Assembly: GCA_005879985.1 (NCBI GenBank)
Contig: VBIA01000062.1
Span: 1-40,693 of the forward strand
Direction of reading: 5' to 3'
Origin: Chloroflexota bacterium
GTDB lineage: Bacteria > Chloroflexota > Dormibacteria > Dormibacterales > Dormibacteraceae
DNA length: 40,693 bases
Position numbers and translations under genes: made by a program. Shown in pieces: positions 7,079 to 8,765 of this stretch (positions within the stretch are counted from its first letter, which is position 1; each line of letters starts with the position of its first letter). The notes beneath the pieces are model-generated. The model saw only the letters and a program-made list of their open reading frames with translations. It was not told the DNA's origin and ran no database searches.

Positions 7079-7175
7079 AAGGGGACGGGAAACCGGCTCT
7101 GGCTTTATGAAGCCGTAAAGCATAGCCTTAACGCCGGCCGGCGCCGGCGGCGTCGCCAGGGAGGTGATAGAGGTT
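7079..7175 (+). other. Leader region of the small-peptide gene, possibly structured
   Basis: There is no gene here. Two compact hairpins can be drawn: CGG-GAAA-CCG (7088-7097) and GGCTT-TATG-AAGCC (about 7102-7115). A very GC-rich stretch of overlapping inverted repeats follows (7131-7153), and then a strong ribosome site. The order of hairpins and unpaired purines is reminiscent of a riboswitch aptamer, but it does not match any class I can recognise. It could also include the end of the leuA transcript. Confidence 0.3.
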
Positions 7176-7286
7176 ATGCGCAAGTTTGGATTCAGTCTGC
7201 TGTTCGCTACGATCTTGACCACGGCGGCGATGGTTCTGATGGCCCTTCCGGTCGGAGCCGGCGGGCCGCCCTGCTGCTTCTCCTAG
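7176..7286 (+). CDS. Small secreted peptide, candidate pheromone precursor
   Basis: A 36-residue ORF: basic N-terminus MRKFGF, a hydrophobic stretch of about 20 residues (SLLFATILTTAAMVLMALPV), a small-residue site VGA, then the tail GGPPCCFS. This is the layout of a Sec signal peptide releasing an approximately eight-residue peptide with adjacent cysteines. It is preceded by GGGAGGTGAT (7159-7168), a nearly full-length match to the 16S anti-Shine-Dalgarno, 7 bases before the ATG. That is by far the strongest ribosome site in the window and the main argument that the ORF is real and highly translated. The next gene (7359) is an XRE-HTH/TPR regulator on the same strand, the usual receptor type for small exported peptides. 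The alternative is an unrelated small membrane protein. No homology is claimed. Confidence 0.65.
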   Translation: MRKFGFSLLFATILTTAAMVLMALPVGAGGPPCCFS

Positions 7287-7358
7287 CTGAAAAGATCGTT
7301 TCAAAGCGCGCTGTTAAGGCGGTGGCGTCATTAAGCGATTTGAGATACGCTGGCCTTC
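7287..7358 (+). promoter_or_regulatory. Gap between peptide and regulator genes, with inverted repeat
   Basis: Just after the peptide stop lies TGAAA-agatcg-TTTCA (7288-7303), an interrupted inverted repeat that could be an operator. Further on, ttgagatacgct (7340-7351) contains only a poor -10-like GATACG. No convincing -35 box and no T-run terminator is present, so the two genes may share a transcript. Confidence 0.35.
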
Positions 7359-8765
7359 GTGTTCAATACCGGAGACGGCCGGAGTCCGAGCGCGCCCAGC
7401 CAGGTAGCCGAAGCACGTCCGACCAGGCGCCGGCGTCTGCCTGGAGTGAACCTCAAGCAAGGTGCCGTCAAGCAGGCGCGACTCGAAGCCGGTTTGAGCC
7501 TCGCTCAGCTCGGCAAGGGCCACGTCACCGCGCCCGCCATCTACCTGATCGAGACCGCCCGCACGCGTCCGTCGCTGCCGACGCTCGAACACATCGCGCG
7601 GCGTACCGGCAAACCCGTCGAGTACTTCCTGGCGGATCCGGGCGGCGCCACCGACGAGACCCACGCGGGACTCCTGCAGCTCGAGTCGCTGTGCGCGGCG
7701 GGCCGGTTTACCGACGCGGCCGCCCTGGGCCGGAAGCTGCTGGACGGCAGCAGCTCGGCGCACCGGCTGGGCAAGATCCGCTACTTCCTGGCCCACGCGC
7801 TGCTGAACCTTGGACAGCCCGACGAGGCCAAATCGCTCCTCGCAGCGGCGCACTCGCACTTCGAGGCGATCGACGACCAGCTGATGCTCGCCGAATGCCT
7901 CGGCTCCGAGGCGTCGCTGGCGTACCTGACCCAACGGCCGGGCGCCGCCGAGCTCGCCGAGCGCGCGCTGGCGATCTCCCGCCGGTTCAAGCCGGTCCCG
8001 CAGCCGACCGAGGCCCGCTTGCTCGCGATCCTTGCGACGGTCCACCTCGCCAACAAGGAATGGGACCAGGCGATCTCCTCGTACCAGGAGGCGATCGATG
8101 CCGCGGGCTCGCTGTACGACCTGCGCCGGTTGGCGCTCATGTACACCGGCCTGAGCGATGCCTACCGCGAGACTGGCCAGGTGGACGCGGCGGCGCGATT
8201 CGCCAACCGGTCCATCGCCCTGCTCGAGGTCCTGCGCGACCGCCTGTCGCTGGCCCGCGCCGAGAACAACCTCGGCTTGATCATGCTGGCGCGCGGCGAT
8301 CACTCTCAAGCCCGCGAGCACCTCGACCGGTCGCTCGGCCTCTTCGAGGAGACCGAGGTGGAGATCGGGCGCAGCTACGTGCTTCTGAGCCTGTGTGAGC
8401 TGAGCCTGCGGGAAGGTTTCACGGGCAACGCGCGCGAGCTCGCGGAGGAGGCGCTGGACCTGGCGACGCGGCTGGACGAGCGGCCCAACGTGGCCGAGGC
8501 TCACGTCTTGCTGGGGCTGGTGGCCGACAAGGAAGGGGACCAGGCAGGCACCGACCGCGAGTTCAACATCGCATTCGCGGAGCTGGCAAAGCTGGAGCAG
8601 GACGAGAGGGTGCTCCGCTGCCATGGGGTCTACGCCGAGGTGCTGGAGCGCCGGGGGGACGTGGAGCAGGCGTACGTCCACATGAAGAAGGCGTTCGCTG
8701 CCAGCCGGCCTGGGCTCCTGCAGCGGGACGGCGAGGACATCGCAGACAGCGCCAGCCTGGCGTAG
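7359..8765 (+). CDS. XRE-family HTH regulator with TPR domain, RRNPP-like architecture
   Basis: 468 residues from the GTG at 7359. A GTG at 7446 would give 439 residues and may be the true start, because the first 29 residues are Arg/Ser/Pro-rich and precede the conserved part. Residues ~30-92 form an XRE helix-turn-helix (VKQARLEAGLSLAQLGKG...APAIYLIETARTRPSLPTLEHIARRTGKPVEYFL). The rest, ~100-450, is an array of about eight TPR-like helical hairpins (for example ALLNLGQPDEAKSLLAAAH, AENNLGLIMLARGDHSQARE, SLREGFTGNARELAEEALDL). HTH plus TPR is the layout of Rgg/PlcR/NprR-type receptors, in which the TPR groove binds a small imported peptide. The adjacent secretable peptide supports that reading. 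HTH-TPR proteins with no peptide ligand also exist, so the ligand is inference. Confidence 0.8.
   Translation: MFNTGDGRSPSAPSQVAEARPTRRRRLPGVNLKQGAVKQARLEAGLSLAQLGKGHVTAPAIYLIETARTRPSLPTLEHIARRTGKPVEYFLADPGGATDETHAGLLQLESLCAAGRFTDAAALGRKLLDGSSSAHRLGKIRYFLAHALLNLGQPDEAKSLLAAAHSHFEAIDDQLMLAECLGSEASLAYLTQRPGAAELAERALAISRRFKPVPQPTEARLLAILATVHLANKEWDQAISSYQEAIDAAGSLYDLRRLALMYTGLSDAYRETGQVDAAARFANRSIALLEVLRDRLSLARAENNLGLIMLARGDHSQAREHLDRSLGLFEETEVEIGRSYVLLSLCELSLREGFTGNARELAEEALDLATRLDERPNVAEAHVLLGLVADKEGDQAGTDREFNIAFAELAKLEQDERVLRCHGVYAEVLERRGDVEQAYVHMKKAFAASRPGLLQRDGEDIADSASLA

Follow-up and report, generated by a model that had tools for sequence, protein, structure and literature searches.

Peptide quorum sensing through helix-turn-helix (HTH) proteins with tetratricopeptide repeats (TPRs) has been described for Bacillota, their phages and plasmids. 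The systems of that phylum that are functionally similar to the pair reported here belong to the RRNPP or RRNPPA group, namely Rap-Phr, Rgg-SHP, NprR, PlcR-PapR, PrgX, ComR-ComS and AimR-AimP. When RRNPPA profiles were run against 13,513 complete bacterial genomes, RRNPPA genes were reported in Firmicutes genera (PMC9765709), and a further analysis covered Firmicutes and viral genomes only (PMC10075063). We found no such systems in Chloroflexota or Actinobacteria, or otherwise outside Bacillota, in the open-licence literature searched, which is itself no proof of novelty. The pair of genes described here is one copy of a widespread Chloroflexota family of peptides and receptors that has apparently not been described before.

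The pair lies in a contig of 40,693 nucleotides (G000:C193), and we refer to this whole stretch as the window. The genome comprises 2.85 Mb in 235 contigs and is 88% complete, and the nearest named records are soil Chloroflexi MAGs. The features of the locus are as follows.

7159 to 7168, plus strand: Shine-Dalgarno sequence of the peptide gene, GGGAGGTGAT, recognised from the sequence, 7 nt from the ATG.
7176 to 7286, plus strand, stop codon included: open reading frame (ORF) for a 36-residue pro-peptide, a candidate pheromone precursor.
7176 to 7259, plus strand: predicted signal peptide, MRKFGFSLLFATILTTAAMVLMALPVGA, with M1, R2 and A28 invariant across relatives.
7260 to 7283, plus strand: predicted mature octapeptide GGPPCCFS; relatives mostly stop 6-8 residues past the same alanine.
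7346 to 7351, plus strand: putative -10 element TACGCT for a leaderless start of the regulator, 7 nt ahead of its GTG at 7359.
7359 to 8765, plus strand: XRE-HTH and TPR receptor/regulator of 468 residues, from Pfam HTH_3 and TPR_12 matches and an AlphaFold2 model.
7464 to 7628, plus strand: HTH DNA-binding domain, residues about 36-90, from Pfam and the model.
7650 to 8705, plus strand: TPR superhelix of about nine repeats, residues 98-449, from the model; the presumed peptide-binding groove.

The original prediction described a small gene with signal-peptide layout and a GGPPCCFS tail, and this gene is present. Its product is MRKFGFSLLFATILTTAAMVLMALPVGAGGPPCCFS, that is, MRKFGFSLLFATILTTAAMVLMALPVGA followed by the octapeptide. 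Its ribosome site had been called the strongest in the window, a fair description because the core GGAGGTGAT occurs only twice and the second copy, at 2552, lies within an ORF. Many peptide genes of relatives carry GGAGGTGA at comparable spacing. The regulator gene follows after a gap of 72 nt and its product matches HTH_3 (E 5.7e-6) and TPR_12 (E 2.6e-25), as do 62 of 62 family members. An XRE-HTH protein with about eight TPRs had been expected, and the domain assignment stands while the repeat count does not: the AlphaFold2 model, built on an alignment with 62 relatives (mean pLDDT 88.8, residues 1-26 disordered), has 18 helices between residues 98 and 449, or about nine TPR pairs. Upstream lies an HMGL-like, homocitrate-synthase-type (2-isopropylmalate-synthase-like) gene, and downstream a dehydrogenase E1/transketolase-like gene; neither hints at the function of the pair. 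Neighbours at the family's loci (HD-domain, LeuA-like, isopropylmalate dehydrogenase and two-component genes) are inconsistent between loci and indicate no function, and Rfam gives no match at the pair itself.

Homologues of the regulator at E <= 1e-20 occur in 55 of 101 related genomes, and weak peptide matches in the same set sit directly upstream of regulator paralogues. We scanned 90 regulator loci, of which 29 fall within the subclade of the window regulator and 61 outside it, for ORFs with a basic start, a hydrophobic core and a ribosome site just upstream of the regulator. A signal-peptide ORF of 26-36 residues lies immediately upstream in 54 of the 61 homologues from the GTDB class that fall outside the subclade, a count that includes two loci (L075 and L087) found by the first scan and missed by a stricter filter. 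In the window's class the peptide ORF is 5-110 nt upstream of the regulator and on the same strand. A like scanner applied to 79 non-regulator genes from the region and related loci found, in the 330 bp ahead of each, no small signal-peptide-like ORF that also had a ribosome site. The peptide codons are under purifying selection, with pN/pS of 0.37 in 15 pairs of relatives, and in the clade with IGPTP tails five tail codons vary only synonymously across 8 genomes. A chance ORF is ruled out by the control genes together with this selection. The expectation that relatives would carry a signal-peptide ORF near their HTH-TPR gene is thus borne out, and the family-wide pairing supports the view of the two genes as a candidate quorum-sensing pair. 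Two further observations concern gene layout in the class. At L084 (G006:C9:15885-19011) one regulator paralogue follows another on the same strand, at a distance of about 570 bp. In G011, L210:5152-5229 matches RF00029, a Group II intron domain, at 43.2 bits against a gathering score of 40, about 140 bp upstream of an STGPGI peptide gene.

The tails of the peptides follow the receptors. In an alignment of 45 peptides M1 and R2 never vary, nor does A28, which is position -1 relative to the predicted cleavage, and the receptor tree groups the tails beyond by clade into PPCC-type (22 rows), IGPTP(K), STGPGI/V, WPPGT and WPNPx. Conservation of a GGPPCCFS-like tail had been proposed as a test of the pair. 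Tails are indeed conserved, each in its own clade, GVPPCC, IGPTP, STGPGI and WPPGT among them; GGSPCCYS in G005 and GNVPPCCS in G035 stand at the position of the octapeptide. Pairs that reside in one genome differ in tail. G006 encodes DGWPPHI, DSTGPHI and ETIGPTPK, and the window's genome has a second tail, DTGCHCF, on contig C75. The adjacent cysteines are no peculiarity of this locus, as had been thought, since in the sister clade PPCC-type tails are the norm, and another Chloroflexota family has them too. We also compared conservation at presumed groove positions (2, 5, 9, 12 and 13 of TPR helix A, assigned by register) with that at other non-structural positions, using class means averaged by hand from the table of values. 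Only clades whose tail is fixed or almost fixed show a more conserved groove (.66 versus.54 for IGPTP and.75 versus.60 for STGPG); clades with variable or absent tails do not (.46 versus.47 and.55 versus.52). This modest statistic is suggestive, not decisive.

Beyond the class, other gene orders are found across the phylum. Receptor relatives are present in 129 of 400 genomes of a phylum-wide Chloroflexota sample, and at 60 phylum-wide loci no peptide of the window type lies directly upstream on the same strand. Some of these loci have peptides 6-7 bp downstream of the regulator stop (...DYFGGPPICC, ...DWWGSPPLCC) and others have divergent ones (...GGPPFPK, ...GGPVPYPK, ...GNGWPH, ...ADIMPGWK). 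Family f32 was searched in full, with 30 regulator loci scanned in 28 genomes, and has an adjacent precursor at about 20 of the 30, four downstream and about sixteen divergent. Three of the four downstream precursors bear [GP]PPxCC or SPPxCC tails. Secreted precursors in which the signal unit is repeated are characteristic of pheromones, and ten divergent f32 precursors carry exact or near-exact tandem copies of their tails. These are SFPEDPW (core FPEDPW) in two or three copies and PVDPGYPQ, SFPSDPGEP, PEDPGFGG and ADPIVVTDPV in two each, as well as two copies of DPGDGGGF with a diverged linker between them. Tandemly duplicated pro-peptides are also known in Bacillota (PMC11343458). The large families f19 and f38 have receptors, with no convincing peptide in the loci scanned.

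Taken as a whole, the pair probably forms a self-contained peptide-signalling module that works by export, cleavage, re-uptake, TPR binding and altered DNA binding. The small gene would encode a pro-peptide exported via Sec, and signal peptidase I would cut it after Ala28 to give a peptide of 7-8 residues, here GGPPCCFS. Once released, the peptide would be re-imported, probably by an oligopeptide ABC transporter, and would bind the adjacent regulator on the concave side of its TPR superhelix. Binding would alter the action of the HTH dimer at palindromic operators, the module's own promoter included, and the response would therefore track peptide concentration. We infer secretion, cleavage, import, binding and output, together with the tail as the signal. 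The required machinery exists, since the genome has one gene for signal peptidase I and four for oligopeptide-binding proteins of the SBP_bac_5 type.

Toxin-antitoxin and bacteriocin loci also pair short hydrophobic peptides with XRE regulators. The peptide could thus be an antimicrobial, a RiPP-like product or a membrane-active toxin, with the HTH-TPR protein acting locally as its repressor, sensor or antitoxin. Two features would fit such a role: a vicinal disulfide could form in PPCC tails, and in the clade with CC tails a gene for a small two-transmembrane protein precedes the peptide gene. We nevertheless think it unlikely, as the mature parts are mostly of 6-8 residues and no modification enzyme or transporter was seen beside the pairs among the neighbours checked, a non-exhaustive set. 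Tandem tails and the distinct tails of co-resident receptors better suit a ligand code, and conservation of the receptor groove tracks that of the tail. In most loci of the CC clade the two-transmembrane gene itself (about 65-120 residues; L056, L070, L088, L029, L069, L073 and others) stops about 50-68 nt short of the peptide gene, and its product is a possible accessory, export or immunity factor.

A released signal is also to be weighed against one that stays in the cell or membrane, held there by a hydrophobic transmembrane anchor, with the regulator reading the peptide level or the state of the membrane. Peptides of just 26-36 residues, mostly hydrophobic, would be suited to this, and in the WPNP clade the hydrophobic segment ends in LSC, a possible lipobox. 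Retention is very unlikely, however, given an invariant alanine at the cleavage site with a constantly short tail after it, and given tandem-repeat precursors with long linkers. The peptides of L107, L108 and L109 (family f3) have a hydrophobic segment that ends LSC-A; these precursors may use signal peptidase II if this is a lipobox, and a relative in G043 has Phe in place of the Cys.

The promoter regions bear on how the released-signal module would be controlled. Of 82 regulator genes, 60 have a TANNNT element 5-8 nt ahead of their start, none of them with a Shine-Dalgarno sequence, against 3 of 993 internal start-like codons with the element at this spacing. The regulator genes, that of the window included, therefore appear to be leaderless; leaderless starts may be general in these genomes. 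Strong ribosome sites on the peptide genes and leaderless starts on the regulator genes mean that the two have separate expression signals. In the window's class the small ORF, which stands close upstream on the regulator's strand, could also be read as a cis-acting leader, a uORF or attenuator that controls regulator translation or transcription and has an inert product. This is hardly credible. Against it stand the regulators' own promoter and leaderless start, conservation at the amino-acid rather than the codon level, and an invariant signal peptide and cleavage alanine; in other families, peptide genes that are divergent or downstream rule it out.

Candidate operators are found in two clades. 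A palindrome, TGAGTTGAC-N6/7-GTCAASTCA, spans the -35 region of the peptide gene in the IGPTP clade, and its only exact copies genome-wide are at the module's own promoter. With up to three mismatches allowed, one more conserved site appears, with two mismatches, in three related genomes (L235, L236, L237). It precedes a gene for a conserved 133-residue membrane protein with four transmembrane segments, which is a candidate target gene. In the subclade of orphan (peptide-less) regulators of genus g8, each genome has a single copy of CTTAACNNNGTTAAG (CTTAAC-N3-GTTAAG), ahead of the regulator. Exact CTTAACNNNGTTAAG was not found in the window's genome, so we do not claim this operator for the window. 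The palindromes suggest autoregulation by a dimeric HTH protein.

Relatives that keep the regulator with no short ORF upstream had been named as evidence against a pair. They prevail in the window regulator's own subclade, not in the wider family. Among the subclade loci with enough upstream sequence to be assessed, 23 of 26 are without the peptide, which is kept only in the window, in L004 (DVWPPVR) and in L009 (DGWPPHI). The nearest relative, G009, is 75% identical and has the same upstream gene; the promoter region of its regulator is still recognisable, but it has no peptide gene. The peptides that remain, three in number, all start with MRKFGF and the sister clade has peptides almost throughout, which makes repeated loss the simplest reading. 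Since the wider family keeps its peptides, the orphans of the subclade look like products of repeated peptide loss or like eavesdropping receptors. Most subclade genomes have kept the receptor with no adjacent peptide, and some of these receptors may listen to peptides from other loci. Receptors with no adjacent pheromone gene ("eavesdroppers") also occur among RRNPPA systems (PMC9765709). In this subclade a conserved hairpin, GCAGGCCGCGGCGGGAAGCACTCTnACCGCGaCCTGC, was seen between the upstream gene and the regulator (L014, L016, L017, L022, L004, L009). Its loop and stem are equally conserved, 5 of the 13 genomes searched have its core, each a single time, and no Rfam family matches it 5' of orphan regulators such as those of L014 and L017.

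By analogy with Bacillus and Streptococcus, the pairs probably let these soil bacteria sense each other. They would extend peptide communication to a deep lineage, many of whose members are uncultured soil bacteria, and are a possible handle on the growth or differentiation of uncultured Chloroflexota. The family would supply dozens of predicted signal sequences ready for synthesis and testing, and its tandem-repeat precursors and orphan receptors allow the evolution of signal codes and of eavesdropping to be compared. A bolder proposal, which we regard as doubtful, is that Chloroflexota have evolved or retained an HTH-TPR/peptide pheromone system of their own, separate from RRNPP of Bacillota, with many parallel channels and with a class of thiol pheromones in which the state of the vicinal cysteines takes part in signalling. 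That class would comprise the [S/G]PPxCC-type tails of the window's class and of a distant family in which the genes are arranged differently. If the proposal is true, the cysteine state (free, disulfide or metal-bound) could couple density sensing to redox or metal conditions.

The closest matches to the TPR superhelix, in sequence and in fold, are LGN/Pins, kinesin light chain and other TPR_12 scaffolds. These proteins bind extended peptides in a concave groove but have eukaryotic scaffold or cargo roles and, unlike the window regulator, no HTH domain. The TPR regulators of the NsdA/AfsR type from Actinomycetota show weak similarity in the TPR region in NCBIfam (AfsR E 5.6e-15, NsdA family E 2.4e-9, both far below curated cut-offs), and these families are not known to have a short export peptide encoded next to them. 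Among the 25 Pfam families listed of the 44 matched none is specific to RRNPP, those listed being generic models of the HTH_3/TPR_12 type. A single-protein search of solved structures finds only generic TPR proteins; in a profile search Rap chains (RapI E 1.4e-10) do appear, but only below many generic TPR matches. Among the best 50 Foldseek matches are the Rap-pheromone complexes 4gyo (TMt 0.75) and 8rsv (TMt 0.71), with the LGN TPR domain placed higher; TPR superhelices are generic and LGN is the best structural match. The window pair differs from RRNPP systems in its Chloroflexota host, in the leaderless regulator genes and in the many Pro-rich tails with vicinal cysteines. Sequence does not establish membership of a named RRNPP subfamily, while the view that the pair works like RRNPP is well supported. 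Both have a cytoplasmic receptor with a C-terminal TPR superhelix and, Rap excepted, an N-terminal HTH, whose gene adjoins that of a short Sec-type pro-peptide, and in both the presumed signal is the C-terminal 5-8 residues, conserved within receptor types and divergent between them.
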